Shown piece by piece: positions 8,469 to 46,187 of a stretch of 64,000 nucleotides of DNA. The notes below the pieces were generated by a model. It made no database searches and was not told where the DNA came from. It worked only from the letters and a program-made list of their open reading frames with translations. The translations under genes were made by a program, and so were the position numbers. Origin of the DNA: Catenovulum agarivorans DS-2 (GTDB lineage: Bacteria; Pseudomonadota; Gammaproteobacteria; Enterobacterales; Alteromonadaceae); contig NZ_ARZY01000004.1 of NCBI RefSeq assembly GCF_000568405.1, positions 1-64,000 of the forward strand. The letters are read 5' to 3'. How positions within the stretch are numbered: the stretch's first letter is position 1; each line of letters opens with the position of its first letter.

Positions 8469-8471
8469 CTT

Positions 8472-8503: not shown

Positions 8504-8570
8504 GTTTAGTTGTCAAAGCAGCTCCAGCCAAGTAAATTTAATGCTTGGGTAACTTGTTGTAAATTCTATT

Positions 8571-13500: not shown

Positions 13501-13517
13501 TTGTCGCTAACATAACT

Positions 13518-13547: not shown

Positions 13548-13573
13548 ATAAACAGGGTTACGGAGTTGAGTTG

Positions 13574-15088: not shown

Positions 15089-15089
15089 A

Positions 15090-15359: not shown

Positions 15360-15516
15360 ACGTTTTCAAGGTTGATATTTAACCTTTAGCGCTAGTTAGG
15401 TTTGTTAAACTCGCATTTTTCGCCTATTTTTTAATAAATATGTTAATTAAAGGTTCTAAAAAATGGGATTTTTGTAATCAATTAAGTTGACTATACAGAA
15501 ATGATCATCTAGATTG

Positions 15517-15530
15517 TGTAAATGTTTACA
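15517..15530. promoter_or_regulatory. LacI-type operator-like palindrome
   Basis: TGTAAATGTTTACA has perfect 6-base arms and differs by one base from the LacI-family form TGTAAACGTTTACA. It lies about 100 bases upstream of the second TBDR start. Confidence 0.5.
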
Positions 15531-15537
15531 TTGATTT

Positions 15538-15559
15538 GCAGGTTAGCCTGCTTTTTTTT
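15538..15559 (+). terminator. Short hairpin followed by eight T
   Basis: GCAGG-TTAG-CCTGC (15538-15551) followed by TTTTTTTT. It fits an intrinsic terminator for the unit ending with the OrfA-like gene, or an attenuator, since it sits between the two operator-like palindromes. Confidence 0.6.
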
Positions 15560-15568
15560 CGTAAACGA

Positions 15569-15582
15569 TGTAAATGATTACA
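15569..15582. promoter_or_regulatory. Second operator-like palindrome
   Basis: TGTAAATGATTACA repeats the first palindrome with one arm shortened to five bases. It is 49 bases upstream of the TBDR start and 52 bases from the first copy. Confidence 0.4.
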
Positions 15583-15630
15583 TTGGCAAAGGGGCCACCA
15601 AAAAGGTTTTCCAACACATGGGTGAACACG

Positions 15631-18729: not shown

Positions 18730-18762
18730 AGTCTTTGTTTGACCTTGTAGTAACCTTTGTGT

Positions 18763-18796
18763 GCCGCTAACTGAGCAATCATTAGCGGCTTTTTTT
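18763..18796 (+). terminator. Intrinsic terminator after TBDR 2
   Basis: GCCGCTAA (18763-18770) pairs with TTAGCGGC (18782-18789), followed by seven T. The halogenase gene downstream therefore may have its own promoter in 18800-18932. Confidence 0.8.
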
Positions 18797-18932
18797 GATT
18801 TAGATTCACTTGCAGCTATTGCTGATGATGTTAATCGTTTGTTATGCTGATGCGATGAATGCGCTTTCGCGAATGATTTCTCATTAAAATAAGACTCTAC
18901 ACGAGCTATTTATACAAATATAAGGCGTACAC

Positions 18933-28827: not shown

Positions 28828-28850
28828 CAAAAAAGTTATGAGGGTTGCCG

Positions 28851-29612
28851 TTGAAAGTCTTATTTTTATGCACCGAAAATTCAGCAAGATCGATAATGGC
28901 GGAAGCTTTGCTCAAGCATCATGGTAAAGGCAAGTATCAAGTGTTTAGTGCGGGCTCTGACCCGAGTGGTATTGACCCACGCACCTTATCGGCAATTGAA
29001 CATTTTGGATTGCCCACAGCCAATTTGACTTCGAAATCTGTAGAACAATTTGCCGGTGAACACTTCGACTTTGTGATTACCTTGTGCAATAAAGCCGCGG
29101 CAGAATGTGAAGGGCGAGTCAGTGGCACAAACTGTTTAGCCTGGGATTTCGTTGGGCCAAAATCACGTAAAGAAGCCAATCCATTTGAAAAGACGCTGCA
29201 AGAGTTGAATGAACGCATTAAAACCTTTGTGTTGCAACTTGAACAAGCGACGCCGAATACGATTTCGCCGACGCGCTTTTATAAATCATTGGCTGACGAT
29301 ATTCGGCTAAAAACTTTGTTGATTGTCGCGGTGGAGCACGAAGTTTGCGTGTGTGAGTTGTTGGTTGCATTGGCAGAAGAAAGCCAGCCTAAGGTATCGC
29401 GCCACTTAGCTCAGTTAAAAAAGGCGGGCATATTGTCGGATCGCAAACACCAACAATGGGTATTTTATTCACTCAACCCAACTTTACCTGTTTGGATGAA
29501 ACAGGTGATTACTTCAACTGTGGTAAACGAACCCAATTTTATTGAGCAAGAGTTGGCTAGATTAAATGCCATGGGTGATAGACCAACTCGTACTGCTAAA
29601 TGCTGTGAATAA
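28851..29612 (+). CDS. Arsenate reductase - ArsR repressor fusion
   Basis: A 253-residue fusion. The N-terminal half is a low-molecular-weight-phosphatase-type arsenate reductase: the P-loop is C7-TENSARS and the redox pair Cys79/Cys86 has the spacing known for the thioredoxin-coupled enzyme of pI258. The C-terminal half (about 138-230) is an ArsR winged helix with the arsenite-sensing CVC motif (VCVCELL, 166-168) and a recognition helix QPKVSRHLAQLKKAG. No separate arsR is present, so this protein probably both detoxifies and senses. The start is TTG at 28851, chosen for GAGGG six bases upstream. Confidence 0.9.
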   Translation: MKVLFLCTENSARSIMAEALLKHHGKGKYQVFSAGSDPSGIDPRTLSAIEHFGLPTANLTSKSVEQFAGEHFDFVITLCNKAAAECEGRVSGTNCLAWDFVGPKSRKEANPFEKTLQELNERIKTFVLQLEQATPNTISPTRFYKSLADDIRLKTLLIVAVEHEVCVCELLVALAEESQPKVSRHLAQLKKAGILSDRKHQQWVFYSLNPTLPVWMKQVITSTVVNEPNFIEQELARLNAMGDRPTRTAKCCE

Positions 29613-29624
29613 CAGGAGTACATT

Positions 29625-30644
29625 ATGGGAAATTTTGAACGTTATTTATCCGTATGGGTCGCAGCTGCAATTGTTTTAGGTGTCAGCCTAGGCTTGCTAT
29701 ACCCTAGTTTGTTTGCTTTTGTCGCCCAGTTGGAAGTGGCCAAAGTGAACCTAGTGATTGCTGTATTTATTTGGTTGATGATCTACCCCATGATGGTGCA
29801 GATAGAGTTCGCCAGCATTCGCGACGTGGGCAAAAATCCACAAGGATTATTGCTCACCATAATCATTAATTGGTTAGTCAAACCTTTTTCGATGGCGGCA
29901 CTTGGATGGTTATTTTTTGAAGGTATATTTGCCGATTGGGTGTCTGCGCAAACCGCCCAAGAATACATCGCTGGCATGATTTTATTGGGCGTTGCACCTT
30001 GCACAGCAATGGTGTTTGTATGGTCGCATTTAACCAAAGGGGATGCCAATTACACACTTGTTCAGGTATCAATAAACGACATTATTATGATATTTGCTTT
30101 TGCGCCGATCGCTGGATTTTTATTAGGCGTGTCAGACATACAGGTGCCTTGGAGTACCTTGTTTATCTCTGTTGTGCTGTACGTGATATTGCCGCTGATA
30201 GCGGGTGTGATAACTCGCAATTGTTTAAACAAATCAGCCAAAGACAGTGCGGCAATTGGCCAACTGCTCGATAGACTTAAACCTTTTTCTGTTATTGGTT
30301 TATTAGCCACCGTCGCTTTGTTGTTTGCATTTCAAGCCAACACCATTGTGGCACAGCCGCTAAATTTGCTGCTAATTGCGATTCCGCTGTTATTACAAAC
30401 CTATGGAATTTTCGCAATAACTTACTTTCTAGCGCTAAAACTCAAACTAAAACACAAAATTGCTGCGCCAGCATGTTTAATTGGTACGTCTAATTTTTTT
30501 GAATTAGCGGTTGCGGTGGCAATTTCACTATTTGGATTACATTCAGCGGCCGCTTTGGCCACGGTAGTGGGGGTATTGGTTGAAGTGCCGGTGATGTTAT
30601 CGCTTGTAGCATTAGTGAACAGAACTCGGCACTGGTTTGAATAG
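29625..30644 (+). CDS. acr3: Arsenite efflux permease, Acr3 family
   Basis: Inner-membrane arsenite/H+ antiporter of 339 residues with about ten helices. Typical Acr3 landmarks are [47 protein letters not shown] (conserved Cys) and [18 protein letters not shown]. It lies 12 bases after the arsC-arsR gene with a good ribosome site, second in the arsenic operon. It is distinct from ArsB-type pumps. Confidence 0.95.
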
Positions 30645-30679
30645 TCAGTTTAACTTAAAAAATTGAGAGGAAATTTATA

Positions 30680-31684
30680 ATGACCATTAAAGTGGGTATC
30701 AATGGCTTTGGCCGCATGGGACGATTAACTTTTCGTGCCGCATTTGATTATACAGATATTGAATTTGTGCAAATAAACGATCCTGCGGGTAATGCTGAAA
30801 CCCTAGCGCACTTGCTCACTTATGATTCAGTACATGGTAAGTGGCATAAACAAGTAGAGCATACAGAATCGAGCATAGTGGTTGACGGCCATGCAATTCA
30901 AGTCACTCAAAACAAAACAATTGAACAGACCGATTGGTCGAGCTGTGACATTGTGATTGAAGCGTCTGGCAAAATGAACAAAACCGAGTTGCTGCGAAAA
31001 TATTTAGACCAAGGCGTCAAAAAAGTGGTTGTCACGGCACCGGTCAAAGAGGCGGGTGTATTGAATGTGGTGATGGGGGTAAACGATCATCTATACAACG
31101 CAGCTGAACACACTATAGTCACGGCGGCTTCGTGCACGACCAATTGTTTAGCGCCTGTTGTTAAAGTATTACAAGATAAAATTGGCATTAAACATGGTTC
31201 AATGACGACTATTCACGACATTACCAATACGCAAACCATAATTGATGCACCACATAAAGATTTACGCAGAGCGCGTGCATGCGGTAGCAGTTTAATTCCA
31301 ACCACTACTGGCTCTGCAACTGCAATTACACATATTTTTCCTGAACTAAAAGGTAAATTAAATGGCCATGCGGTACGTGTACCATTAACCAATGCATCAT
31401 TAACGGACTGCGTATTTGAAGTCAGCCGCGCTACAACGGCCGAAGAAATTAATGCATGGATGAAAGAAGCTGCAGAAGGTGAGCTAAAAGGCATTTTGGG
31501 TTACGAAGAAAAACCTTTGGTGTCGATAGATTATAAAACAGACCCGCGCTCAAGCATTATCGACGCGTTATCGACTATGGTGGTAAACGACACTCAAGTT
31601 AAATTATATGCTTGGTATGACAACGAATGGGGCTATTCGAACCGTACCGCCGAACTAACGCGCAAGGTTGCCTTGTCTCTTTAA
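30680..31684 (+). CDS. ArsJ-associated glyceraldehyde-3-phosphate dehydrogenase
   Basis: A 334-residue GAPDH with NAD-binding [12 protein letters not shown] and the catalytic Cys152 in [11 protein letters not shown]. In this operon context it is the GAPDH that uses arsenate in place of phosphate to make 1-arseno-3-phosphoglycerate, which ArsJ then exports. The context is the argument; sequence alone cannot exclude a glycolytic role. It lies between acr3 and arsJ with short gaps. Confidence 0.93.
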
Positions 31685-31696
31685 GGAGAAATTGTC

Positions 31697-32938
31697 ATGA
31701 AGCGCTTGGCCAATTTATCAGCCGACATAAAACAGTACCTTATTGTTACCGGTAATTATTGGGCTTTTACTCTAACCGACGGTGCCTTGAGAATGCTGGT
31801 GGTATTACACTTTCATGCATTGGGTTACTCGCCATTGAGTATTGCCATGCTGTTTTTGTTTTACGAAATATTTGGTGTGATTACAAATTTAGTCGGTGGT
31901 TATTTAGGCGCGCGTTTAGGCCTGAATAAAACCATGAATATTGGTTTGGCGATACAAATTATCGCATTGCTGATGTTAGCTGTACCGGCTGAGTGGTTAA
32001 CCGTTGTGTATGTGATGATAGCTCAAGCGCTTTCAGGGATTGCCAAAGACCTCAACAAAATGAGCGCCAAAAGCTCGATTAAAATGCTAGTTGCGGCGGG
32101 TCAAGAAGGCACATTGTTTAAATGGGTTGCGATACTAACGGGTTCAAAAAACGCACTTAAAGGCGTCGGCTTTTTCTTAGGTGGGCTGCTGTTAACCCTG
32201 TTGTCGTTTAAAGGCGCAATGGCAGCCATGGCAGGTGCACTCGTTATTGTTTGGGGTTATAGCCTGTATGCACTTAAAAATGATTTAGGCAAAGCCAAAC
32301 AAAAACCAAAGTTTAAACAAATTTTGTCGAAAAGCCGTGCAATAAATATTTTGTCTGCTGCAAGAATGTTTTTATTTGGCGCGCGCGATGTTTGGTTTGT
32401 TGTTGCGCTGCCGGTGTTTTTATCCCAAGTATTTAATTGGGACCATTGGACAGTTGGAGGCTTTTTAGCCTTATGGGTAATAGGCTATGGTATTGTTCAA
32501 TCGGTTGTGCCTAAGCTGATAAACTTTAACCAAAGTTTATCGCCAGCCAATGAAGCGACTAAATGGGCCACATTATTAGCCACTGTTACTTTGTTCATTG
32601 CCTTAGCGCTTTATTTTCAATGGGCAATACACATCAGTTTGATAGCTGGGTTAATGATATTTGGTGTTTTATTTGCAATTAACTCATCTTTACATAGCTA
32701 CCTGATCGTCAGCATGGCGGATGCAGATGGCGTGTCTTTAGATGTTGGTTTTTATTATATGGCAAATGCACTTGGTCGCTTGATAGGCACAGTGCTGTCA
32801 GGCTGGGTATATCAAGCGTATGGCTTAGCGGCTTGTTTAAGTATATCGTGTGCCTTTATAGTCAGTGCAGCTGTGATTTCCATTAACCTACCGCGTGCTA
32901 ACCATAATGGTTTGGCTAGGGGTGATAATAGCCTGTAG
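31697..32938 (+). CDS. arsJ: Organoarsenical efflux MFS transporter ArsJ
   Basis: A 413-residue MFS permease with about 11-12 helices, beginning YWAFTLTDGALRMLVVLHFH, typical of ArsJ. It exports 1-arseno-3-phosphoglycerate, completing an arsenate-resistance route with the GAPDH upstream, 12 bases away. Its 3' end overlaps the convergent 5-formyl-THF cyclo-ligase gene by 51 bases. Confidence 0.93.
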   Translation: MKRLANLSADIKQYLIVTGNYWAFTLTDGALRMLVVLHFHALGYSPLSIAMLFLFYEIFGVITNLVGGYLGARLGLNKTMNIGLAIQIIALLMLAVPAEWLTVVYVMIAQALSGIAKDLNKMSAKSSIKMLVAAGQEGTLFKWVAILTGSKNALKGVGFFLGGLLLTLLSFKGAMAAMAGALVIVWGYSLYALKNDLGKAKQKPKFKQILSKSRAINILSAARMFLFGARDVWFVVALPVFLSQVFNWDHWTVGGFLALWVIGYGIVQSVVPKLINFNQSLSPANEATKWATLLATVTLFIALALYFQWAIHISLIAGLMIFGVLFAINSSLHSYLIVSMADADGVSLDVGFYYMANALGRLIGTVLSGWVYQAYGLAACLSISCAFIVSAAVISINLPRANHNGLARGDNSL

Positions 32939-33484: not shown

Positions 33485-33858
33485 ACCTTGCCACCTCAAC
33501 CTAAATCAAAATTGCTTTAAAGCATCTAACTGAACTCTGTTTACTTATTCTACCTCAATGACAGCTAAATACCTTGTGTAACTTAAATGTAAAAATAAGC
33601 ATCAGTTTATTTACAACTGGCTTGTTTAACCATTTTGACGGTTAAATAAGCAAGTGGTCTGCATCCGTTATTTTATAGGGCTTTACGCCAAGCGTGCTGG
33701 CCGCTGACTGAGATTTTTCTAATTAAAACAGTCAAGTAAAATTACAATTTGTAATCCAACTGTCATAAAACTTGCAACTTTCTGTCACTTTTCGTGCGTA
33801 GCCTTTGCCCTAAATTTTTGCGTGTTAAATCAAATAAGTGTTCCATTTGGAGACAATA
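33485..33858. promoter_or_regulatory. Divergent regulatory region with Pho-box array
   Basis: 374 gene-free bases between the cyclo-ligase and the large lipoprotein gene. A short IR-like stretch, CTTGTTTAACC with GGTTAAATAAG, lies at about 33622-33651 and could be a terminator or operator. The right part holds the Pho-box array given separately. Confidence 0.5.
33760..33804 (+). promoter_or_regulatory. Pho-box-like promoter of the lipoprotein/TBDR unit
   Basis: CTGTCAT (33760-33766) and CTGTCAC (33782-33788) lie 22 bases apart in direct orientation, with the weaker CTTGCAA exactly midway (33771-33777), giving an 11-base period as in PhoB sites. Ten bases after the last half-site is TAGCCT (33799-33804), a possible -10. 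Confidence 0.7.
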
Positions 33859-36800
33859 ATGAATATACAAAAGCTGTTTCAATTAAGTGCGGTTGCTGCA
33901 TCTTTAACCCTTGCAGGTTGTGGTGGCGACTTAGTAGTGCAAGAAGGCGATACGGTCAATAACGAATATGTGGATTGTAAAGACTGTACTATCAATAATA
34001 ATACGGGGACAAACCCTGATAGCGGAACATCTAGCCGTGATGATAGTTTAAATGGACAAACTGGCTTTGATACTGGTATCCAAACGGCAATTGATGCAGG
34101 GATTGCTTCTGAAGTAACTTCTGATGCCGCGTATAGTGATGTTGCGGCAAAATATCCAACTAAGAAGATCTACAAATTGTCAAGCACTACGGCTGCGCGC
34201 GGTACTGCAGCGAGAAATCCTGTTTTGACTAGTGACGTATCGTTAACAAACGATGCTGTATGGATCTTAGATGGCAGAGTTGCTGTTGGTGAAGACAATG
34301 CGAACTCTGCAACATTATGGATTCAGCAAGGAACCACTATAGTTGGTGAAACTGGTGATGACTTCTTAGTAGTTCGTCGTGGCTCTAAAATAAATGCGGT
34401 AGGTACTGCTTCTCAGCCAATCACGTTCACTTCTATCCAAGATATTTCTGGCGCTGAGACTGGTATTGGTCAATGGGGGGGGATTGTTCTTTTGGGTAAT
34501 GCTCCTGCAAACTCATGCGGTGACCAAAAAGGTGAAACTACGTCTGATGAATTGGCTAACTGCGGTGTATCAGCTGAAGGGGACGCTGGATTGTTCGGTG
34601 GTAGCGATCCACAAGACAACTCTGGTAAGTTGAAATATGTAGTTGTTAAACATGCAGGTAAAACATTAGGCAATGGTGACGAGCTTAATGGTATTTCATT
34701 TGCGGGTGTGGGTTCAGGTACAACTGTTGAATACATTCAAGTTCATGAAAACTTAGATGATGGCATAGAGTTTTTTGGTGGAACTGTAAGCGTTAAAAAT
34801 GTTGTTTTGACTAGCATAGGTGATGATTCTTTAGATTGGTCATTTGGTTGGACAGGTAGTGCAACAAATGTATACATTCAGCAACTAGAAGGCGCTGGCG
34901 ACAACGCCATTGAAGCTGACAACTCCGAGTTTGATGCAGCGGCTTCGCCTCTAACTAAACCTACAATCAAAAACGTAACTATTGTTGGTGCTGATGGAAC
35001 TAATGGTATCCGTTTGCGAGCAGGTACAGCTGGTGTTCTATCAAATGTATTTGTTACAGGCCCAGCAAATTATAGCAACTGTTTACGTGTAAATGGTACT
35101 GAGTCAGCAAACCTTGCTGCTTCTGGTGAATTGGCAATCTCAAATTCAGTTGTTGCTTGTGTTAATCCTGCGAACAACTTTGGTTCTCAAGCAATTGGAG
35201 ATGGTGATGTTAACTCTTGGTTTTTGGGCCAAGCTGGTAACCAAGAGTTACCTGTATCCGAGCTGATGCTTGAAGACAACGGTTATATGCCAAAAGCCGG
35301 TTCTCCTCTTATTTCAGGTAGCCAACAAATTGGTGCATTCAATGGTTCAACAAACTGGATGGATGGTTGGACTGTTGGCATCAACGGTGGTTTCCCTACA
35401 GATTTACAAACCCCAATTGACGCAGGTTTAGCTGCTAACGTTTCTTCAGAATTCCCTGAAATTACTGATAAGCCAGTCTATCGCTTACAAGAAAGTGTTC
35501 AAATTTCTGAAGATATGGCGTTAACAAATGACGTTCATTGGATTATTAAAGGTCGTACAGCAGTAGGTGGCGATCGAACGGATAGCGCTACGCTTTGGAT
35601 TCAGGATGGAACGACGATTATCGGTGAATCAGGTGATGATTTCTTAGTTGTTCGTCGTGGTTCTAAAATACAAGCTCTAGGTTCTGTATCGGCACCAATC
35701 GTAATGACGTCTATTCAAGATGTAACGGGCCAAGATACAGGTATCGGTCAATGGGGTGGTTTGGTACTGTTAGGTAACGCTCCTGCAAACTCTTGTGGTG
35801 ACCAAAAAGGTGAAACTACAACTGAAGAGTTAACAAACTGTGGTGTATCTGCTGAAGGTGCTGCTGGTTTGTTTGGTGGTACAGACCCAGAAGATAATTC
35901 TGGTACTTTAAAATATTTAGTCGTTAAGCATGCTGGTAAAACACTAGGCAATGGCGATGAGTTAAACGGTATCTCTTTTGCAGGTGTGGGTTCAGGTACT
36001 AAAGTAGAGTTCATTCAAGTTCATGAAAACTTAGATGATGGTATTGAATTCTTTGGCGGTACGGTAAGCGTTCGCAATGTCGTTTTAACTAGTATTGGTG
36101 ATGATGCATTCGACTGGTCTTTCGGTTGGACTGGTAAAGCACAAAACGTATATATTCAGCAGTCAGCGGCTGCGGGTGACAATGCATTTGAGGCAGATAA
36201 CTCAGAGTTTGATGCTAAAGCTACACCTCAAACAAAACCAACTATATCTAATGTGACCATCGTCGGTGCATCGGGTGCGAACGGTGTGAGATTGCGTGCG
36301 GGGACTGCTGGTGTACTTAAGAACTTTGTTGTTACAGGCCCAGCGGATTATAGCAACTGTTTACGTGTAAATGGCGACGAATCTGCAGCCCATGCGCTGT
36401 CGGGTGAGCTTTCTATTTCCCACTCAATTGTGGCATGTGCTGATGCTTCGAATAACTTTGGTTCTCAAGCAATTGGTGACGGTGACGTATCAACTTGGTT
36501 TGCGGGTCAAGATGGTAATGCGGTTCATACACCCGCAGAGTTGAACTTGGCAACGGATGGTTTTTCTCCTAAAACAGGTTCACCTTTGCTTGGCAATGGA
36601 TTTGATTCTTCTACATTAGATCCATTCTTCAATAAGACCGATTATATAGGTGCATTCGATGGTGAGTTCAACTGGATGGACGGCTGGACCTATGGTGTGA
36701 ATCAAAACTTCCCAGCAGATGTTCAAAATGCGTTTGAGCAAGGGTTAGCTACTGACGTTTCTAGTGAGTATCCGGAAATTACTGATAAGCCAGTTTATCG

Positions 36801-38010
36801 CTTAACAGAAGACACGACTTTCACGGCTGATGTCACTTTCACTAACGATGCGCATTGGGTAATTAAAGGTCGTACCGCTGTAGGTGAAGATAATGCGAGT
36901 AACGCGACGCTATATATTCAAGCTGGTACAACTATTATCGGTGAGTCTGGTGATGACTTCTTGGTCGTTCGACGTGGTTCAATGATTGAAGCTGTTGGTT
37001 CAAATGTTAAGCCTATCACTTTAACGTCAATTCAAGATGTTACAGGTGCTCAAACTGGTATCGGCCAATGGGGCGGTGTGGTGTTATTGGGTAATGCTCC
37101 AGCGAACTCATGTGGTGACCAAAAAGGTGAAACAACAGCACAAGAATTAGCTGAGTGTGGTGTTTCAGCTGAAGGTGATGCTGGCTTGTTTGGTGGTAAT
37201 CAACCAGAAGACAACTCAGGTACTTTGAAATATGTTGTGATTAAACATGCTGGTAAAACACTTGGTAACGGTGATGAATTGAATGGTCTGTCTCTTGCCG
37301 GCGTTGGTTCACAAACCGAATTGGATTTTATCCAAGTTCACCAAAACTTAGATGACGGCGTTGAGTTCTTTGGTGGTACCGCGAGCATTAGCCACTTAGT
37401 TTTAACTGAAATCGGTGATGATTCTTTAGATTGGTCGTTCGGTTGGAATGGTAATGCACAATACGTATTGATTAAACAAGGTGATGCAGATGGTGACAAT
37501 GCTATCGAAGCTGACAATTCAGAGTTCGATGCTGCAGCTACACCACTGACTAAACCTACCATTAGTAATGTAACTGTGCTTGGTTCTACTGGTACTAATG
37601 GTCTTCGATTGCGTGCTGGAACCGCTGGTAACCTACACAATGTTATTGTTACTGGGCCAGCAGACTACAGTAACTGCTTGCGAGTGAACGGAACTGAATC
37701 TACAGCTCATGCTGCAAGCGGCGAATTGACTATCACAAATTCAGTGGTTGCTTGTACAACGGAAGGTAACAACTTTGGTTCAGAAGCAATTGGTACTGGT
37801 GATGTAGAAAGCTGGTTTAAAGGTCAATCTGAGAACTTAGAATTGACTGCTGCGGAATTAAAACTAAATGGTTACGTACCAGCTAGTGATTCTCCATTGT
37901 TAAATGTACCTGCGGTTACTCCTAGCAACTCATTCTTTGATGAGGTCAACTTTATCGGTGCTGTAAGTGCGGATAATGACTGGACTGCTGGTTGGACTGT
38001 TGGTCTTTAA
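33859..38010 (+). CDS. Giant three-repeat lipoprotein
   Basis: A 1383-residue predicted lipoprotein (lipobox LTLAGC). After a linker it consists of three homologous units of about 430 residues. Each has YPxITDKPVYRL-like and LTNDAVWILDGRVAVG-like openings, GDDFLVVRRGSK, GIGQWGGIVLLGNAPANSC, GLFGG, VVKHAGKTLGNGDELNG, HENLDDGIEFFGG and ADNSEFDA, and four cysteines at fixed places (NSCGDQKG, NCGVSAEG, YSNCLRV, VAC). The alternating short strands suggest parallel beta-helix. No catalytic family is recognised. It is first in a Pho-box-controlled unit with a TBDR, so a surface ligand-binding or phosphorus-releasing role is possible. The ATG at 33859 has GGAG upstream. Confidence 0.75.
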   Translation: MNIQKLFQLSAVAASLTLAGCGGDLVVQEGDTVNNEYVDCKDCTINNNTGTNPDSGTSSRDDSLNGQTGFDTGIQTAIDAGIASEVTSDAAYSDVAAKYPTKKIYKLSSTTAARGTAARNPVLTSDVSLTNDAVWILDGRVAVGEDNANSATLWIQQGTTIVGETGDDFLVVRRGSKINAVGTASQPITFTSIQDISGAETGIGQWGGIVLLGNAPANSCGDQKGETTSDELANCGVSAEGDAGLFGGSDPQDNSGKLKYVVVKHAGKTLGNGDELNGISFAGVGSGTTVEYIQVHENLDDGIEFFGGTVSVKNVVLTSIGDDSLDWSFGWTGSATNVYIQQLEGAGDNAIEADNSEFDAAASPLTKPTIKNVTIVGADGTNGIRLRAGTAGVLSNVFVTGPANYSNCLRVNGTESANLAASGELAISNSVVACVNPANNFGSQAIGDGDVNSWFLGQAGNQELPVSELMLEDNGYMPKAGSPLISGSQQIGAFNGSTNWMDGWTVGINGGFPTDLQTPIDAGLAANVSSEFPEITDKPVYRLQESVQISEDMALTNDVHWIIKGRTAVGGDRTDSATLWIQDGTTIIGESGDDFLVVRRGSKIQALGSVSAPIVMTSIQDVTGQDTGIGQWGGLVLLGNAPANSCGDQKGETTTEELTNCGVSAEGAAGLFGGTDPEDNSGTLKYLVVKHAGKTLGNGDELNGISFAGVGSGTKVEFIQVHENLDDGIEFFGGTVSVRNVVLTSIGDDAFDWSFGWTGKAQNVYIQQSAAAGDNAFEADNSEFDAKATPQTKPTISNVTIVGASGANGVRLRAGTAGVLKNFVVTGPADYSNCLRVNGDESAAHALSGELSISHSIVACADASNNFGSQAIGDGDVSTWFAGQDGNAVHTPAELNLATDGFSPKTGSPLLGNGFDSSTLDPFFNKTDYIGAFDGEFNWMDGWTYGVNQNFPADVQNAFEQGLATDVSSEYPEITDKPVYRLTEDTTFTADVTFTNDAHWVIKGRTAVGEDNASNATLYIQAGTTIIGESGDDFLVVRRGSMIEAVGSNVKPITLTSIQDVTGAQTGIGQWGGVVLLGNAPANSCGDQKGETTAQELAECGVSAEGDAGLFGGNQPEDNSGTLKYVVIKHAGKTLGNGDELNGLSLAGVGSQTELDFIQVHQNLDDGVEFFGGTASISHLVLTEIGDDSLDWSFGWNGNAQYVLIKQGDADGDNAIEADNSEFDAAATPLTKPTISNVTVLGSTGTNGLRLRAGTAGNLHNVIVTGPADYSNCLRVNGTESTAHAASGELTITNSVVACTTEGNNFGSEAIGTGDVESWFKGQSENLELTAAELKLNGYVPASDSPLLNVPAVTPSNSFFDEVNFIGAVSADNDWTAGWTVGL
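34081..35406 (+). repeat. Lipoprotein internal repeat 1
   Basis: First of three homologous in-gene units, from the QTAIDAG segment to just before QTPIDAG. The distance between the shared GDELNG anchors of units 1 and 2 is 1278 bases. Confidence 0.85.
35407..36723 (+). repeat. Lipoprotein internal repeat 2
   Basis: Second unit, from QTPIDAG to before QNAFEQG. The same anchor is 1317 bases from that of unit 3. It alone with unit 3 carries SSExPEITDKPVYRL; it also has an extra DPFFNKTDYIGAF-type end shared with unit 3. Confidence 0.85.
36724..38007 (+). repeat. Lipoprotein internal repeat 3
   Basis: Third unit, ending at the stop codon with DNDWTAGWTVGL, which matches the inter-unit segments NWMDGWTVGI and NWMDGWTYGV. 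The protein thus ends exactly at a repeat boundary. Confidence 0.85.
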
Positions 38011-38023
38011 TTTTAAAACCTCA

Positions 38024-38057
38024 ACGCACTATGAACGATTCATGGTGCGTTTTTTTA
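38024..38057 (+). terminator. Hairpin with U-run after the giant lipoprotein
   Basis: ACGCACTATGAA (38024-38035) pairs with TTCATGGTGCGT (38039-38050) with one G-T, followed by seven or eight T. The TBDR starts 60 bases later, so either read-through or a second promoter is needed. Confidence 0.75.
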
Positions 38058-38116
38058 TTCTGGTTAGTTAATTATTCTGGCTGAGCAAAATGTCAGCCAA
38101 TCTGATGAGGTTGAAA

Positions 38117-40822
38117 ATGTTTGATACAAACCTATCAAAAAAAAGCCTTGCAGCATCAGTCCTTTTTGCGTTGTCTAGCCATGCAGCACATGCTGCTCAA
38201 GAAGATGACCCAATGATAGAGGAAGTTGTTGCTACTGCTAGTCGCCTTCAAGGGTCGGCCCAAGCAGTGATACAAGAGCGTCAAAACCAGGCATTTGTTG
38301 CTGATATAATGGGCGCAGAACAAATTTCACGAACAGGTGATGGTGATGCAGCATCAGCTTTACGTCGTGTTACAGGCCTTACACTTGTTGACGGTAAGTT
38401 TATATATGTACGTGGTTTGGGTGAAAGATATTCCAGCACTCAATTAAATTCAATGTTGGTTCCAAGTCCAGATCCAACTCGTTCAGTAGTCCCACTAGAT
38501 CTATTTCCATCAGATATTATTGAAAGCTTGAGTGTTCAAAAGTCATATTCTCCTAATATGCCAGCGCATTTTGGTGGTGGTAATGTGGACATTAGAACAA
38601 AATCTTTACCATCAGATTTTATCTTTAAAGTTAGCGGTGGTTTAGGGTCAACTTCGAAAAATACAGAAGACGGATATTTTTATGAAGGAGGGGCTGATGA
38701 CTGGAAAGGCGAAGACGATGGAACTCGGGGTTTACCTGCTCTATTCCAACAGTCAATCACCGATAACGGCGGTACAGGGATCGAAGGTGACAGAAATACA
38801 ACTTTAGAAGAACGCAAGGCACTGCTGTCTTCGATAAATTGGGAAATTGGTCCAGAGAAGCAGTCTGTTGACCCAGACTTTGGCTTTGGTGTTACTTTGG
38901 GTGACCGAATTGACACGGAAATCGGCAATTTTGGCTTCTTGGCAACAGCGGGATACGACAATAGCTGGTCAATAAGTGATGAAGATAGTGGTAGCAATAT
39001 CGGCTCTAAGGATAGAGACTTTGGGGTGTGTAATGCCCAAGGTGATTGTTTTGCTCAGTATCGTTCTGGCGTAACAACCGAACACAATGTGCGCTGGAGC
39101 GGCATGTTAAATCTAGGGTATGAGTATGAAGGTCATAAAATCGAGCTAGCTAATATTGCACTCCATGATATGAGCGACCGTGTTCGTGACCACGATTACT
39201 TTGACGAGAACGAGATCGGCTCTGATAACAATGACGTAAAGGCTTTACGCCGTATTGAAGTTTTGTATGAAGAGCGAGAAATGTTCTCGACACAGTTGAA
39301 AGGGAAACACAACTTTGCTGCTTTAAATAATTCGTTTTTTGACTGGTATTTAGGTACGAGTCGAACTAGCCGTAAGGCTCCAGGTTCGCTAGAAGCAACT
39401 TTTGAGCAAGTCCTTGAAAACGGTTCGGTAACAGAGGAGTTTTTACAAGACGTATCATCTGCAAAAATGAATCGAGATTACCAACAGCTACATGATAAAA
39501 TGGACACTTGGGGTTGGAACGCTGGTATACCTTTCTATTTAGACAATACTGAAATTGAAATAAAAGTCGGTGGTGATTTCTCTGAGAAACAACGAAACGC
39601 ATCGAATGTTTCGATAGATATACTTCACTTTGGTATCAGTGATGAGTTCACCAAAGGTAGTAATATTTATGATATTTTTTCAGATGAAAATATTGCGAAT
39701 GATGATTTTTATTCGAGTAGTACTGGCGCAAATATTTTCCAAGACGCCACTACCGATGGTGATGCCTACCTCGCAGCTAATAAAATAGATGCTTTTTATG
39801 GTATGGCTGATGTTTTTTGGAATAATAAACTTCGTGTGACAGGTGGTGTGCGCTGGGAAGAATTTTCTCAGGTATCTGTGCCGCTACAAGCTCATACCGA
39901 TAAGTTTGATGCATCAACTGAAGAAATCCAACAAACATCTATTAAAGAAGATGACTTGTACCCATCATTAGCTCTTACTTATTTCTGGTCTGAAGAAATG
40001 CAAGTTCGTTTCAATATATCTGAAACTGCAATTCGACCTGATTTTCGTGATGTAAGTAAATCTTTTTTTATTGATCCATTAACTGAGTTGTTAGTGCGTG
40101 GTTCACCAACGTTAAGAAGTACCAAGCTAACTAATGTTGATTTTAGATTAGAGTGGTATGGTTCTGCGGGAAATACATTGTCAGGTGCCCTGTTCTACAA
40201 AGATATGGTCAATCCAATAGAGCTTGTTGAGATCACCAGCGTAGGTGGCGCAACTCCGCAACTATTGACTGCCAATGCAGAATCAGCTGAATTATATGGT
40301 ATTGAAATTGAGTTTATGCAAGACTTATCAATTATTGATAACGATTTAGCTGCTTATTTCTTATCTGGTAATTTAACTGTTTCAGATTCAAATGTAGTGA
40401 TTGGTTTTGACGATCTAGACTCCATATTTAATCAGCAACTACGCGCAGCTTTAGAGGGCTCGACTGTATCTTCTAACTTTGTAACTAATAACGAACGTCG
40501 CTTGATCGGTCATTCTGAGTGGGTTGCAAATATGCAGTTAGGTTGGGATTCTGATGATGGTGAGCACTCAGCTTCGTTAGTCTACAATGTATTTGGACCT
40601 CGTATTATTGTTCCTGGTACGCGTGGTAATCAAGACGCTGAGGAGCAATCGTTCCATTCTTTGGATATGGTATACACCTACTATCCAACTTTTGAGAGTA
40701 GTGTTAAATTCAAGATTAAAAATATCTTAGGTGAAGAGAAAGAAATACTGCAACAAGACATTCCTTTCTACCGTAAAGATAAAGGAACTGAATTTAGTGT
40801 GAGCTTTGACTACGAGTTCTAA
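38117..40822 (+). CDS. TonB-dependent receptor of the Pho-linked unit
   Basis: Outer-membrane receptor of 901 residues. A signal peptide (SVLFALSSHAAHA) is followed by the TonB box IEEVVATAS, a plug with GDGDAASALRRVTGLTLVDGKFIYVRG shortened here to its motif, RGLGERYSSTQLNSMLVPSPDPT and VPLDLFPSDIIESLSVQKSYSP, typical of a TBDR group often annotated as outer-membrane receptors for unknown ligands. The barrel ends EFSVSFDYEF. The ATG at 38117 has GAGG six bases upstream. It lies between the giant lipoprotein and the TonB2-type operon, and probably works with both. Confidence 0.9.
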   Translation: MFDTNLSKKSLAASVLFALSSHAAHAAQEDDPMIEEVVATASRLQGSAQAVIQERQNQAFVADIMGAEQISRTGDGDAASALRRVTGLTLVDGKFIYVRGLGERYSSTQLNSMLVPSPDPTRSVVPLDLFPSDIIESLSVQKSYSPNMPAHFGGGNVDIRTKSLPSDFIFKVSGGLGSTSKNTEDGYFYEGGADDWKGEDDGTRGLPALFQQSITDNGGTGIEGDRNTTLEERKALLSSINWEIGPEKQSVDPDFGFGVTLGDRIDTEIGNFGFLATAGYDNSWSISDEDSGSNIGSKDRDFGVCNAQGDCFAQYRSGVTTEHNVRWSGMLNLGYEYEGHKIELANIALHDMSDRVRDHDYFDENEIGSDNNDVKALRRIEVLYEEREMFSTQLKGKHNFAALNNSFFDWYLGTSRTSRKAPGSLEATFEQVLENGSVTEEFLQDVSSAKMNRDYQQLHDKMDTWGWNAGIPFYLDNTEIEIKVGGDFSEKQRNASNVSIDILHFGISDEFTKGSNIYDIFSDENIANDDFYSSSTGANIFQDATTDGDAYLAANKIDAFYGMADVFWNNKLRVTGGVRWEEFSQVSVPLQAHTDKFDASTEEIQQTSIKEDDLYPSLALTYFWSEEMQVRFNISETAIRPDFRDVSKSFFIDPLTELLVRGSPTLRSTKLTNVDFRLEWYGSAGNTLSGALFYKDMVNPIELVEITSVGGATPQLLTANAESAELYGIEIEFMQDLSIIDNDLAAYFLSGNLTVSDSNVVIGFDDLDSIFNQQLRAALEGSTVSSNFVTNNERRLIGHSEWVANMQLGWDSDDGEHSASLVYNVFGPRIIVPGTRGNQDAEEQSFHSLDMVYTYYPTFESSVKFKIKNILGEEKEILQQDIPFYRKDKGTEFSVSFDYEF

Positions 40823-40841
40823 TCTAGCTATCTCGCACCAT

Positions 40842-40867
40842 AAAGGGATGAAATATTTCATCCCTTT
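40842..40867. terminator. Perfect palindromic terminator
   Basis: A 26-base perfect palindrome with arms AAAGGGATGAAAT and its complement, followed by an A/T-rich stretch. It closes the TBDR unit before the second Pho-box promoter. Confidence 0.7.
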
Positions 40868-40925
40868 AATATTTCTTTCACATAATCAATCCCTTTCCCG
40901 CTTACCTTGTTGCTTTGTCATATTA

Positions 40926-40970
40926 CTGTCATTTTGCATTAATCTCACTGTCATCTAAACGACATATAGT
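40926..40970 (+). promoter_or_regulatory. Pho-box-like promoter of the TonB2 operon
   Basis: Two exact CTGTCAT copies (40926-40932 and 40948-40954) lie 22 bases apart. Ten bases after the second is TATAGT (40965-40970), a good -10. The layout copies that at 33760-33804 base for base in spacing. Confidence 0.75.
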
Positions 40971-41009: not shown

Positions 41010-41771
41010 ATGAGCCTTTCGCAAATATTTAAAACGACTGTTGTCGCGTCATGCGTAGCAATGGCTTCGTTTGCACAAGCTAACAGCTTAGAGCCTGCAA
41101 TTGAAGCAGGGCAAAAAATTAATCAATCTGCTGAAAAGTCGCAACAAAAAATCGACAAAATTAGCGATGATATTCAAGCGCGTTTGCAGCAATTTAAAGC
41201 AATTAACAAGGAAATTGAAGGTTTATTGGTTTACAACCGACAATTAGAAAAACAAGTTGCTAACCAAGAAGCTGAAATGGCTGACATTAACGAGTCAATC
41301 GACAAAGTTTCTGTCGTTGAGCGCCAGGTTACACCATTAATGATTCGCATGATTGATGGTTTAGAGCAATTTGTTCGCTTAGATGTTCCATTCTTACCAG
41401 AAGAGCGCACAGGGCGTATTGCTGATTTAAAAAGCATGATGGATAGAGCTGATATCACGCCTTCAGAAAAATTCCGTCGCGTATTAGAAGCGTACCAAGT
41501 AGAAGTTGATTACGGCAAAACTATTGAAGCTTATACCTCAACTTTAGAAGTTGAAGGTGAAGTTCGTGACGTTGATTTCTTACGTGTTGGTCGCGTGGCG
41601 TTAATTTACCAAACGCGTGATGGCAAGTTCAGCGGTGCATGGGATAAAAATCAAAACGATTTTGTTGGTTTGTCTCCAGAATATCGCACTCAAATTACTA
41701 AAGGTTTACGTATAGCACGTAAGCAATTAGCACCTGATTTATTAGTTTTACCAGTTTCAGCTGCTGAATAA
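41010..41771 (+). CDS. DUF3450 periplasmic protein of TonB2 system
   Basis: A 253-residue exported protein (signal peptide to FAQANS) with a long coiled coil at about 30-100 (SQQKIDKISDDIQARLQQFK, NRQLEKQVANQEAEMADIN) and the DUF3450 core (ERTGRIADLKSMMDRADITPSEKFRRVLEAYQVEVDYGKTIEAY in part). It opens the operon whose next genes encode TtpC, ExbB, ExbD and TonB. DUF3450 proteins accompany TtpC-dependent TonB2 systems of Vibrio and Shewanella; the exact job is unknown, perhaps to bridge the complex across the periplasm. Confidence 0.88.
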   Translation: MSLSQIFKTTVVASCVAMASFAQANSLEPAIEAGQKINQSAEKSQQKIDKISDDIQARLQQFKAINKEIEGLLVYNRQLEKQVANQEAEMADINESIDKVSVVERQVTPLMIRMIDGLEQFVRLDVPFLPEERTGRIADLKSMMDRADITPSEKFRRVLEAYQVEVDYGKTIEAYTSTLEVEGEVRDVDFLRVGRVALIYQTRDGKFSGAWDKNQNDFVGLSPEYRTQITKGLRIARKQLAPDLLVLPVSAAE

Positions 41772-41782
41772 GAGGTTTTAAA

Positions 41783-43156
41783 ATGAAAAAGTTTGTTAAA
41801 CATATTCTAGCAACAGCGGCACTGTCTGTTTCTTTATCTGCGCCTGTTATGGCTGAAGCTGAAAGCGCAGTTAACTTAGATGAGTTGTTAACTAAGTTGG
41901 AACAAGGTCAATTGTTTCAAAACCAACAAAACAAACAGCGTGAATCTGAGTTTTTAGCTAAAAAAGAACAACAAGTTCAAATGTTAAATGACGCTCAAGC
42001 ACGTCGTAATCAATTGGTTCAACGTAGTGAGCAATTAGAAACAACTTTTGAAGAAAACGAAATTCATTTAGCCGATATCACCAATACTCTAAGCAACCGT
42101 ATGGGTTCGTTAAAAGAGTTATTTGGTGTGTTACAGCAAGTGTCTGGCGATATGAAAGGTAAGTTTCAAAACTCAATTATTTCAGCACAATACCCTGGCC
42201 GTGATGTCTTTTTAGATGAGTTGGCACAAAAAATGGGACAAAGCTCTAAACTAGCTTCAGTTGAAGAAATTGAGCGCGTTTGGTTTGAATTACAACGCGA
42301 AATGACTGAGTCAGGTAAAATTGTTCGTTTTAATGCGCCAGTGGTCAGTGCTGATACAGGTACTAAAACTGAACAAGAAGTGGTTCGTGTAGGTTCATTC
42401 AACTTAGTGTCTAACGGTAAATTTGTTGAGTATGTACAACAAACCGGTTCATTAGCTGAGTTATCTCGTCAACCGTCTGACCGTTACTTAGCAACTGCTT
42501 CTGCAGTGCAAGACAAAAAAGGTGAGTTAGTTGAGTTTGCTATCGACCCAACGGGTGGTTCTATCTTAGGTTTATTAGTTCAAGCGCCAAACTTGCAAGA
42601 GCGTGTTGAGCAAGGTGGTACTGTTGGTTATGTAATCTTGGGTGTTGGTTTAATCGGCTTATTATTAGCGTTAGAACGTTTCATTAGCTTAACCATAGTG
42701 GGTGGCAAAATTAAGCGTCAATTAAAACAAGCTACACCTCAAGCAAACAATCCGCTTGGCCGTGTTATGCAAGTTAAAAACGATAACCCACAAGCAGACA
42801 GCGAAACACTTGAGCTTAAGTTAAGTGAAGCCATTTTACGGGAAGTACCAAAATTGGCGCGTAACTTAACCTTTATCAAAATTATCTCTGTGGTTGCGCC
42901 ATTGTTAGGTCTACTCGGTACAGTGACTGGTATGATTAATACTTTCCAAGCAATTACTTTATTCGGTACAGGTGACCCTAAATTAATGGCAGGTGGTATC
43001 TCTCAAGCATTGGTTACAACTGTATTAGGTTTGGTTGTCGCAATTCCAACCTTGTTGTTATACACAGTTCTTAACTCGCGCAGCCGTGGATTGATTTCAA
43101 TCTTACAAGAGCAAAGCGCAGGTATTATCGCGGAAAGAGCAGAACAAGGAGAATAA
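41783..43156 (+). CDS. TtpC-like MotA/TolQ/ExbB-family protein
   Basis: A 457-residue inner-membrane protein. The signal peptide (SVSLSAPVMAEA) is followed by a periplasmic coiled-coil region, then a membrane helix near 270-295 (YVILGVGLIGLLLALERFI) and the MotA/TolQ/ExbB domain with VVAPLLGLLGTVTGMINTF and LVTTVLGLVVAIPTLLLY. The extra periplasmic part distinguishes it from ExbB and matches TtpC, needed for TonB2 function in Vibrio. It begins 11 bases after the DUF3450 gene. Confidence 0.9.
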   Translation: MKKFVKHILATAALSVSLSAPVMAEAESAVNLDELLTKLEQGQLFQNQQNKQRESEFLAKKEQQVQMLNDAQARRNQLVQRSEQLETTFEENEIHLADITNTLSNRMGSLKELFGVLQQVSGDMKGKFQNSIISAQYPGRDVFLDELAQKMGQSSKLASVEEIERVWFELQREMTESGKIVRFNAPVVSADTGTKTEQEVVRVGSFNLVSNGKFVEYVQQTGSLAELSRQPSDRYLATASAVQDKKGELVEFAIDPTGGSILGLLVQAPNLQERVEQGGTVGYVILGVGLIGLLLALERFISLTIVGGKIKRQLKQATPQANNPLGRVMQVKNDNPQADSETLELKLSEAILREVPKLARNLTFIKIISVVAPLLGLLGTVTGMINTFQAITLFGTGDPKLMAGGISQALVTTVLGLVVAIPTLLLYTVLNSRSRGLISILQEQSAGIIAERAEQGE

Positions 43157-43157: not shown

Positions 43158-43685
43158 GTGTACGCTTTATTCGAAATGTCCGAAGCGATTCAGGGTTTTA
43201 TGGAAACAGGTGGGCAAGTACTCACCTGGATAGCCGCCCTAATATTCGTGATGTGGATCTTAATATTTGAACGTATTGCTTTTGTACGCATCAGCTATAA
43301 AAAGTATGAGCGAGAAATGATTGCCCAATGGGAAGCTCGTACAGAGCGCAAATCATGGAATGCGCATCAGATTCGCGAAGCGATTATCTCGCGTGCAAGC
43401 AATAAATTGAATGAAAATTTACCTTTGTTAAATGCACTTGTTGCGCTGTGCCCTTTACTTGGTTTGATGGGGACGGTAACTGGCATGATTGAAGTGTTTG
43501 ATGTTATGGCTATTTCAGGCTCTGGTAACGCACGCTCAATGGCATCAGGTGTATCAAAAGCAACTATCCCAACAATGGCGGGAATGGTTGGTGCTTTGTC
43601 TGGGGTATTTGCCTCAACTTGGTTAAAGCGAGTAGCAAAACGCGAATCTGAGCTACTTGAAGATCATTTAACAATGGATCACTAG
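43158..43685 (+). CDS. exbB: ExbB-type proton channel subunit
   Basis: A 175-residue ExbB of the TonB2 type, with an N-terminal helix (VLTWIAALIFVMWILIFERI), a cytoplasmic loop and LVALCPLLGLMGTVTGMIEVF then TIPTMAGMVGALSGVFASTW. With ExbD it forms the proton channel that powers TonB. The start is GTG, one base after the ttpC stop, with AGGAG six bases upstream. Confidence 0.93.
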   Translation: MYALFEMSEAIQGFMETGGQVLTWIAALIFVMWILIFERIAFVRISYKKYEREMIAQWEARTERKSWNAHQIREAIISRASNKLNENLPLLNALVALCPLLGLMGTVTGMIEVFDVMAISGSGNARSMASGVSKATIPTMAGMVGALSGVFASTWLKRVAKRESELLEDHLTMDH

Positions 43686-43826: not shown

Positions 43827-43874
43827 ATGCAAAATTTAAAAGGTAAAAATTATGCGAGCAAGTCCTTTAAATAA
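43827..43874 (+). other. Possible 15-codon ORF overlapping exbD start
   Basis: ATG at 43827 has GGAG nine bases upstream and opens a 15-residue frame that stops at 43874, overlapping the first codons of exbD in another frame. It could couple translation or be chance. The 166-base exbB-exbD gap is unusual in an otherwise tight operon. Confidence 0.25.
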
Positions 43875-44259
43875 AATTATGGAAGAAGAAGAAACGTCGA
43901 TAGATATGACGCCTATGCTAGACGTTGTATTTATCATGTTGATCTTCTTCATCGTAACTGCATCTTTTGTTAAAGAAGCCGGTATAGACGTTAATCGCCC
44001 AGATGCACCAACCGCCGTTAAAAAAGAGCGCGCTAATATTTTAATTGCAATTAGCGATGCTGGCGAAATTTGGATTGACAAGCGTCGTATCGACATTCGA
44101 GCGGTACAAGCAAACGTCGAGCGTTTAAAAGCGGAAAACCCACAAGGTTCAGTGGTGATTCAAGCGGATAAAAAAGCAGACGTAGAAACGCTTATTAAAG
44201 TTATGGATGCATCGCGTGCAGCGGGTGCATATGACGTATCAATTGCAGCGAACGACTGA
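43852..44259 (+). CDS. exbD: ExbD-type energy-transducing protein
   Basis: A 135-residue ExbD/TolR protein: EEETSIDMTPMLDVVFIMLIFF contains the membrane Asp used in proton transfer (DMTPMLDVVF), followed by a periplasmic domain (KKERANILIAISDAGEIWID). ATG 43852 has AAGG upstream. It precedes tonB by six bases. Confidence 0.93.
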   Translation: MRASPLNKIMEEEETSIDMTPMLDVVFIMLIFFIVTASFVKEAGIDVNRPDAPTAVKKERANILIAISDAGEIWIDKRRIDIRAVQANVERLKAENPQGSVVIQADKKADVETLIKVMDASRAAGAYDVSIAAND

Positions 44260-44265: not shown

Positions 44266-44871
44266 ATGAGCAGATATTTAATTGCAATTCTTTTATCTGT
44301 TGCGACGACTTTCTTAATTTTTTACGGCATGCAGTCGTTAATACAAAGCGGTGAGGGCGCGCTTACTGAGCCACCTCGCGGCAGCGTATTAGACTTTGTC
44401 CGTGTGAAAAAAGAGTCGGCACCAGAGCAAAAAGACCGAAAACCACAAAAGCCACCTAAACCTCAAGAGCCACCACCGCCAATGGAAGCGCCGCCAATGG
44501 ATGCGCCTGATCCAAATGCCAATGCGGTGACGACAGACTTTGCCGCAGACGTAGAAGCGGATGTTGGTCTATCAAATGGTTTATCGCTTGAATCTGGAGA
44601 TGGTGAGTATTTACCAATTGTCAAAGTTCAACCGATTTATCCACGCCGAGCACAGCAACGCGGTATAGAAGGTTATGTCATTGTTGAATTTACTGTCAGC
44701 AAACTAGGTACGGTTGTTAACCCAGTTGTTGTCGAAGCTGAGCCTGCGAATATATTTGACCAAGCAGCACTGAATGCGGCTAAAAAGTTCAAATATAAGC
44801 CAAGAGTGGTTAACGGCGAACCCATGGAAGTGGCTGGTGTACAAAACAGAATCACTTTTAAAATTGACTAG
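44266..44871 (+). CDS. tonB: TonB2-type energy transducer
   Basis: A 201-residue TonB. It has an N-terminal membrane anchor (LIAILLSVATTFLIFYGMQSL), a proline-rich spacer (KPPKPQEPPPPMEAPPM) and a C-terminal domain (PIYPRRAQQRGIEGYVIVEF, FDQAALNAAKKFKYKPRVV) that contacts TonB boxes of receptors. The short length is typical of TonB2. It lies directly after exbD and before the TPR protein. Confidence 0.94.
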   Translation: MSRYLIAILLSVATTFLIFYGMQSLIQSGEGALTEPPRGSVLDFVRVKKESAPEQKDRKPQKPPKPQEPPPPMEAPPMDAPDPNANAVTTDFAADVEADVGLSNGLSLESGDGEYLPIVKVQPIYPRRAQQRGIEGYVIVEFTVSKLGTVVNPVVVEAEPANIFDQAALNAAKKFKYKPRVVNGEPMEVAGVQNRITFKID

Positions 44872-44888: not shown

Positions 44889-46187
44889 ATGACAAAATTA
44901 TCGAAAAAAATGGTAATCATGTCGATTGCTATCGTGTTGGGTGCAGCGGTTTCACATACGCTGACGACGCCAGTACACGCTCAATCTAGTGCAACCAGCA
45001 AAACGGTTAAAGTGCCAGCCATGCGCTCTAAAGTATACGAGCAATTGGCTAGAGCGCAATCAATCGCTGATGAAGGCAAACCACAAGAAGCCATTGAAGC
45101 GCTTGATAATGTAAATCGTAAGCGTAGTTCAATGAATAGTTATGAAATCGCGATGATGCACAATTTTTATGCATTTGTGTATTACAACATGGAGAATATT
45201 CCAAAGGCGATTGAAAACTTCGAGGCTGTTGTTGCTGAAGAAGCTATTCCAGAGAGTTTGCGCCAAAGTACTTTATATAGCTTAGCTCAGTTAAGCATGT
45301 CGCAAGAAGATTACCAAGGCACCATTGATACGTTAAATGCTTGGTTGGCAGCAGGTGGTGATGCGGAAAATCCAAATGCACAAGTGTTAATGGCGCAGGC
45401 TTATTATCAGCTTAAACAATACGACAATGCGCTTCAGCCATTAAAAAAAGCAATTAAGTTAGTTGCAGATGCTGGCGACACACCAAAAGAAAACTGGTTT
45501 GTATTGCAACGAGCAATTTATTACTCGCTGAAAAAACCAGAGCATGTTGCCGATGTAACTGAAACGCTAGTGCGGTTATTTAATAAACCTGAATATTGGC
45601 TACAATTAGCTGGTATGTATGGTGAATTAGGTCTGGAAGATAAGCAACTAGCAATGATGGAAGTTGCTTATCAGCAAGGTTTTGTAACCAAACGAGCGGA
45701 CATTCTAACTTTGGCTCAATTATACGTGTATCACCAAGTACCGGTTAAAGGCGCGCTATTGTTGGATAAAGCAATAGAAGAGGGTAAGGTTGAGCAAAAT
45801 GTTAAAAACCTCAAGTTTTTAGCGCAAGCCTACACCTTAGCTAAAGAAGATGAAAAAGCTGTGCCAGTTTTGGCCAAAGCAGCTGAATTATCAACTGATG
45901 GCAACCTTGATGCTCAATTAGGCCAAACTTATCTAAATATGGAAAAGTGGCAGCTTGCGATTCAATCAACTCAAAAAGCGATTGAAAAGGGCCAGCTAGA
46001 CGACATGGGTAAAGCACAATTGGTGCTTGGCATGGCTTACTTTAATTTGAAACAGTATGATAAATCGCTTAAAGCCTTACAGGTCGCTAGCGAGCATAAC
46101 TCAAGTAAAATGATGGCTAAGCAATGGCAAAAGTACGTGTCTAAAGAGAAAGAAAACGCCGAAGCCTTGGCAAATATTTCTGCTTAA
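44889..46187 (+). CDS. Exported TPR protein of the TonB2 operon
   Basis: A 432-residue protein with a signal peptide (MSIAIVLGAAVSHTLTTPVHA) and TPR helices throughout (KVYEQLARAQSIADEGKPQE, AQVLMAQAYYQLKQYDNALQP, LGMAYFNLKQYDKSLKALQ). A TPR protein closes the TtpC-type TonB2 operons of Vibrio and Shewanella as well. It probably acts in the periplasm as a scaffold for the complex; no enzyme domain is visible. It starts 17 bases after tonB. Confidence 0.88.
   Translation: MTKLSKKMVIMSIAIVLGAAVSHTLTTPVHAQSSATSKTVKVPAMRSKVYEQLARAQSIADEGKPQEAIEALDNVNRKRSSMNSYEIAMMHNFYAFVYYNMENIPKAIENFEAVVAEEAIPESLRQSTLYSLAQLSMSQEDYQGTIDTLNAWLAAGGDAENPNAQVLMAQAYYQLKQYDNALQPLKKAIKLVADAGDTPKENWFVLQRAIYYSLKKPEHVADVTETLVRLFNKPEYWLQLAGMYGELGLEDKQLAMMEVAYQQGFVTKRADILTLAQLYVYHQVPVKGALLLDKAIEEGKVEQNVKNLKFLAQAYTLAKEDEKAVPVLAKAAELSTDGNLDAQLGQTYLNMEKWQLAIQSTQKAIEKGQLDDMGKAQLVLGMAYFNLKQYDKSLKALQVASEHNSSKMMAKQWQKYVSKEKENAEALANISA

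Follow-up and report, generated by a model that had tools for sequence, protein, structure and literature searches.

The window analysed here, a stretch of 64,000 nucleotides of Catenovulum agarivorans DS-2, contains two neighbouring gene groups on the plus strand. The first consists of the gene of an ElpS-like lipoprotein of 1383 aa (33859..38010), whose lipobox LAGC was recognised by eye, followed by the gene of a TonB-dependent receptor (TBDR) of 910 aa (38090..40822), assigned by profile match and structural model. The second is a TonB2-type operon. It encodes TtpB (DUF3450; 41010..41771, profile match of 311.7 bits), a TtpC-like large MotA/TolQ/ExbB protein of 457 aa (41783..43156, profile match), ExbB (43158..43685), ExbD (43852..44259), TonB (44266..44871) and a TtpD-like TPR protein (44889..46187), which together make up the complete run ttpB-ttpC-exbB-exbD-tonB-ttpD, with ttpD assigned only by position and TPR content. 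The first-pass annotation of this DNA had named a giant lipoprotein/TBDR unit and a TonB2 operon; these gene calls were right.

Terminator-like hairpins follow both genes of the first group on the plus strand. One is located in the gap between the lipoprotein and receptor genes (38023..38051; 13 pairs and a T-rich tail), and the other closes the first unit (40841..40868; fold -16.8 kcal/mol, z -6.25). Their positions are consistent with a division of the locus into two units. The region contained 11 terminator-like hairpins versus 11.3 in shuffles, so the hairpin at 38023 is weak when taken alone. The hairpins perhaps also fit a larger output of lipoprotein than of receptor. Together with the lack of a Pho box before the receptor gene, the one at 38023 gives a hint that read-through may control the lipoprotein:TBDR ratio.

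Just upstream of the first unit, an arsenate-detoxification operon was observed at 28845-32938, with genes for an ArsC-ArsR fusion, ACR3 (407 bits), an ArsJ-associated GAPDH (576 bits) and ArsJ (615 bits). The window scan detected no Pho box before this operon. Phosphate uptake can admit arsenate, so its position beside the Pho unit may be meaningful. In one Idiomarina locus (L081), a GAPDH relative was located about 6 kb past the receptor gene. Elsewhere in the window (10585-20411), two more TBDR genes and a gene of the tryptophan-halogenase family are adjacent to each other.

Each of the two gene groups is preceded by an array of four 11-bp units on the plus strand. Array 1 (33749..33792) has units at 33749 (TTGTAAT), 33760 (CTGTCAT), 33771 (CTTGCAA, weak) and 33782 (CTGTCAC), and array 2 (40915..40958) has units at 40915 (TTGTCAT), 40926 (CTGTCAT), 40937 (CATTAAT, weak) and 40948 (CTGTCAT). 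Both arrays thus show the order strong-strong-weak-strong at 11-bp steps, and both are conserved before orthologous genes. A -10-like hexamer, TAGCCT (33799..33804) or TATAGT (40965..40970), lies 10 nt past the last half-site on the same strand. The first-pass annotation had pointed to CTGTCAT/CTGTCAC at 33760/33782 and to CTGTCAT at 40926/40948, each pair followed by such a hexamer; the coordinates, the 22-bp spacing and the common geometry of the two promoters were all exact. The extra half-site 11 bp upstream in each array (33749 and 40915) was absent from it. In the text available from two papers, a Pho box is described as a pair of 11-nt direct repeats in which seven bases, close to CTGTCAT, are conserved per repeat (PMC4415409, PMC3511308). 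Both arrays have this structure.

To compare the sites with the sequence background, patterns were counted in the window and in the 4,572,425-base genome. CTGTCAY-N15-CTGTCAY occurred exactly twice in the window, versus 0.00 expected from 100 shuffles, and no further site without mismatch was present in the genome. When the pair was combined with 10 nt and TANNNT, only the same two sites were found at up to one mismatch, and 0.00 were expected. The looser pattern with the upstream half-site, taken alone, has an expectation of 0.86 at up to one mismatch. With two mismatches allowed, the genome-wide counts had little excess over the reversed controls (57 versus 46, and 131 versus 117 for a second pattern), so only near-exact sites are informative. 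The uniqueness of the exact sites favours the reading of the arrays as PhoB sites.

The genome encodes a true PhoB (370 bits, above the NCBIfam cut-off), and the window locus and phoB are on different contigs. A genome scan with YTGTMAYWWWWYTGTCAY returned a single exact site, at window position 40915; a further 14 sites differ from the pattern by one mismatch. Of these 14, five fall between 16 and 34 kb of contig C22, the stretch that holds pstS and phoB, and include boxes some 65 nt upstream of pstS and some 50 nt upstream of ppk. Another, on contig C25, stands some 85 nt ahead of a TBDR gene, which is followed by metallophosphoesterase and phytase genes. The remaining eight have no evident Pho link. 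This C25 unit (4107-9896 of region L381) is the genome's second Pho-boxed unit that includes a TBDR gene.

An unseeded motif search of 30 phoB promoters of the family gave TTTTAATAAAAgTGTCAtA, a box related to that of the window. The matrix built from these promoters ranked 33749 first in the window with 13.5 bits (lowest training site, 16.1 bits), and 40915 fourth with 10.6 bits, level with chance sites. As a discriminator on its own, this matrix was rejected, since it was too phoB-specific to separate sites.

Conservation was analysed in the upstream regions (at most 250 bp per gene) of 79 loci of lipoprotein relatives, 30 loci from genomes of the family and the window. No lipoprotein start could be recognised in four of these 110 sequences; once identical and short regions had also been discarded, 97 were left, 81 of them from outside Bacteroidota. 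With two mismatches at most, the box was present before 62 of the 97 lipoprotein genes, all within the 81 non-Bacteroidota sequences (shuffles 2.85, maximum 6), where deduplication covered identical upstream regions only and close relatives are still counted separately. The same box was present before 26/30 ttpB genes (shuffles 0.78, maximum 3). As a control, it was found before only 2/86 TBDR genes located inside a unit (2/76 outside Bacteroidota). None of the 16 Bacteroidota lipoprotein relatives had a box at this threshold.

The geometry behind the box was conserved as well. In the sequences from outside Bacteroidota, the combination of half-site, 10 nt and TANNNT was detected for 70/81 lipoprotein genes and 27/30 TonB operons, versus 4/76 internal TBDR genes; the reversed controls gave 16, 0 and 2, respectively. 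The Bacteroidota counts were 2/16 for the lipoprotein and 3/10 for the TBDR genes. Offsets and spacings were tabulated on an earlier set without 16 lipoprotein loci on the minus strand. Of the 79 boxed promoters in this set, 49 had TA and 42 had TANNNT at an offset of exactly 10 nt from the last half-site, whereas no other offset from 3 to 21 exceeded 18 for TA or 4 for TANNNT. Half-sites clustered at 11, 22, 33, 44 and 55 bp upstream of the anchor (45, 17, 12, 25 and 29 in 90 anchored promoters). An unexplained spacing peak was also observed at 27 bp, with 12 cases in the spacing table and 17 in the final count of lipoprotein promoters.

The genome holds two TonB2-type operons, that of the window and one on contig C20, beside an argS-like gene recognised by eye. 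The 250 bp upstream of the C20 operon contained nothing better than five mismatches to the box. A DUF3450 gene was present at least once in all 118 genomes of the family that were searched, and 92 of the 118 have at least two. We compared the 80 regions of 40 chosen two-copy genomes, taking the copy closer to the window TtpB as the window type. When up to two mismatches were allowed, the box was found in 36/40 window-type copies and 0/40 of the other copies. This putative phosphate-marked TonB2-type paralogue is new here. The 12 operons most similar to the window ttpB in other families of the order had four to five mismatches to the box within the 300 bp covered, and no lipoprotein or TBDR relative was found with them. 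Vibrio TonB3, considered as a phosphate TonB system, had no support in the operons read; among six further operons of this comparison, two (L329, L330) carried a site with two mismatches.

Gene linkage was then evaluated. A TBDR relative was present in 77 of the 79 lipoprotein loci, and ttpB in 31 of the 79 within the fetched flanks, which often end at contig ends. Both phoB and a closely related lipoprotein gene were located in 27 family genomes, and in 10 of these no more than 5 kb separates the two, a linkage that supports the PhoB reading; the DS-2 genome is not among these 10. At a threshold of 1e-60, the lipoprotein was found in 53 of the 92 genomes with at least two DUF3450 genes and in 6 of the 26 with one (P 0.003, uncorrected for kinship). 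Twelve further regions with a window-type TonB operon came from 11 of the 12 two-copy genomes that had no lipoprotein match at this threshold and from one other genome (G105). Nine of them hold a distant lipoprotein relative at 29-34% identity; the other three (L310-L312) keep the TonB-operon box with no lipoprotein relative within the 19 kb read. The apparent recurrence of lipoprotein, receptor and motor genes as a set is also new here.

The lipoprotein contains three repeats of about 440 aa that are 67, 68 and 71% identical (window 34054-38007), and its relatives have one, two or three of them. Neither Pfam nor NCBIfam has a family for it. AlphaFold2 modelled repeat 1 from 106 sequences with a pLDDT of 95.0 and a pTM of 0.94. 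Foldseek with this model returned weak matches, mostly to parallel beta-helix proteins, the best at E 4.5e-3; none was found at E 0.001, and TM was below 0.4 among the 50 matches listed. A sequence search for solved relatives of the repeat found none (best E 1.5). The repeats are predicted to adopt a beta-helix fold. Invariant acidic residues form three pairs, D235/D257, D236/D258 and E239/D261, whose members are exactly 22 positions apart, so that they would stack on neighbouring turns of the helix, and these Asp/Glu residues may bind a metal or a ligand. The receptor model (pLDDT 86.7) is that of a normal TBDR, with PhuR and PfeA as nearest folds at 12-14% identity. Its structural matches were mostly receptors for iron compounds and heme at 8-14% identity, which name no substrate.

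Caulobacter crescentus ElpS (CC0170) offers a known system for comparison. The parts of PMC2996285 available to us describe it as a surface-anchored lipoprotein that is produced when phosphate is lacking, and whose gene adjoins those of the TBDR CC0171 and of a T2SS. According to the same text, purified ElpS had no phosphatase activity, deletion of elpS left the secreted alkaline phosphatase activity unchanged, and overexpression of ElpS raised it. The window lipoprotein gene, likened to elpS by description and layout, also stands beside a TBDR gene. Eight regions with a lipoprotein relative from another class of the phylum all had a related TBDR gene adjacent and two had T2SS genes (by motif), as in the layout of the ElpS locus; of three regions from the same class as the window, two had the TBDR. 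Unlike the ElpS locus, the window has a lipoprotein of three repeats and no adjacent T2SS genes, and its neighbours are arsenic genes and a Pho-boxed TonB2-type operon. In addition, the Caulobacter study describes CC0171 as constitutive, and the window TBDR, by contrast, sits behind a lipoprotein gene with a Pho box (PMC2996285).

The window motor resembles TonB2 of Vibrio vulnificus, which the text seen of PMC6957404 describes as a system of TtpB2, TtpC2, ExbB2, ExbD2, TonB2 and TtpD2 that iron limitation induces and that is required for the uptake of siderophores. The six components are the same, with ttpB first and the TPR gene last. Unlike the iron-induced Vibrio operon, the window ttpB lies behind a Pho box, while the other copy of the operon in this genome has none. 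In Caulobacter, PhoB is described as controlling several TBDRs thought to import phosphate donors, and ExbB does not occur in the main text of that paper, so no Pho-controlled motor is described there (PMC11208175). In the open-licence literature, covered mostly as titles and beginnings of abstracts, we found no paper that joins an ElpS-like lipoprotein, a receptor and a phosphate-marked motor; the literature search returned no expression data for this clade under low phosphate.

Phosphorylated PhoB binds tandem 11-bp repeats that replace the -35 element and recruits RNA polymerase. At the window locus, low phosphate would thus place phosphorylated PhoB on the two arrays, where it would stand in for the -35 element and bring RNA polymerase to the -10 hexamer that lies 10 nt further downstream. 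Promoter 1 would then give the ElpS-like lipoprotein, with its three predicted beta-helix repeats and presumably at the cell surface, together with its TBDR. Promoter 2 would give the second, paralogous TonB2-type energiser of six components (TtpB, TtpC, ExbB, ExbD, TonB and TtpD). Together they would likely bind a phosphorus-containing substrate on the cell surface and import it via the receptor with a condition-specific motor. The sequences themselves show how the boxes are built, that they are conserved beyond the controls, what the genes encode and that the lipoprotein gene is linked to phoB in some relatives. From these comparisons we infer that the units respond to phosphate, that the lipoprotein is at the surface and works with receptor and motor, and what kind of substrate is imported; linkage and shared control suggest that the window motor may serve the window receptor.

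We consider it probable that both promoters are activated by PhoB and make the lipoprotein, the TBDR and a second TonB2-type motor for import of a phosphorus substrate. Co-induction by phosphate starvation through PhoB had been proposed in the first-pass annotation, and as far as sequence goes it is supported by the genomic background and by the orthologous promoters (62/81 and 26/30 versus 2/76; paralogues 36/40 versus 0/40). The production of ElpS on phosphate starvation also counts for a phosphate role of the window lipoprotein (PMC2996285). On the other side stand the constitutive CC0171 and the unchanged alkaline phosphatase after elpS deletion, both as described in that paper, the Bacteroidota relatives without box, the modest phoB-matrix scores at both sites, and the small genome-wide excess at two mismatches with eight one-mismatch sites off the Pho genes. 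The small excess is also what chance matches with no regulatory role would produce. We give this explanation hardly any weight, since the exact sites are unique with 0.00 expected, and the conservation in orthologues, the 11-bp phasing and the 10-nt geometry all stood out from their controls.

Another regulator of the OmpR/PhoB family might bind the repeats. Members of this family can bind direct repeats, and the genome has 11 PhoB-like matches of full or nearly full length in addition to partial ones, among them a response regulator encoded in the window itself (5515-6231, 201.5 bits). Such a regulator is nevertheless improbable as an alternative to PhoB, because the same box precedes pstS, ppk and the phytase unit, a related form precedes phoB in 30 relatives, and the lipoprotein gene neighbours phoB in 10/27 genomes. 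Both units may be induced by phosphate starvation with a TonB operon that serves all Pho-induced receptors and has no special tie to the window lipoprotein and receptor; we rate this as having nearly an even chance. The Pho-boxed TBDR unit with phytase on C25 and the three of 12 regions that keep the TonB-operon box with no lipoprotein relative in the 19 kb read fit such a general motor, but the presence of ttpB in 31/79 lipoprotein loci and of a distant lipoprotein relative in 9/12 further regions argues for a closer association.

TonB motors are usually discussed in connection with iron. The difference between the two paralogues (36/40 versus 0/40) suggests that the motor itself, beyond the receptor, is specialised by nutrient. 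With somewhat less than even confidence, we propose that Alteromonadaceae and their relatives keep two TonB2-type motors and have given one of them to PhoB, and that this dedicated energiser would drive a beta-helix surface lipoprotein and its receptor to import a phosphorus compound intact across the outer membrane. The ElpS-like lipoprotein thereby gains a defined set of candidate partners, which is open to deletion tests in marine bacteria. The conserved switches suggest that related marine bacteria maintain a distinct import motor for times when phosphate is short.
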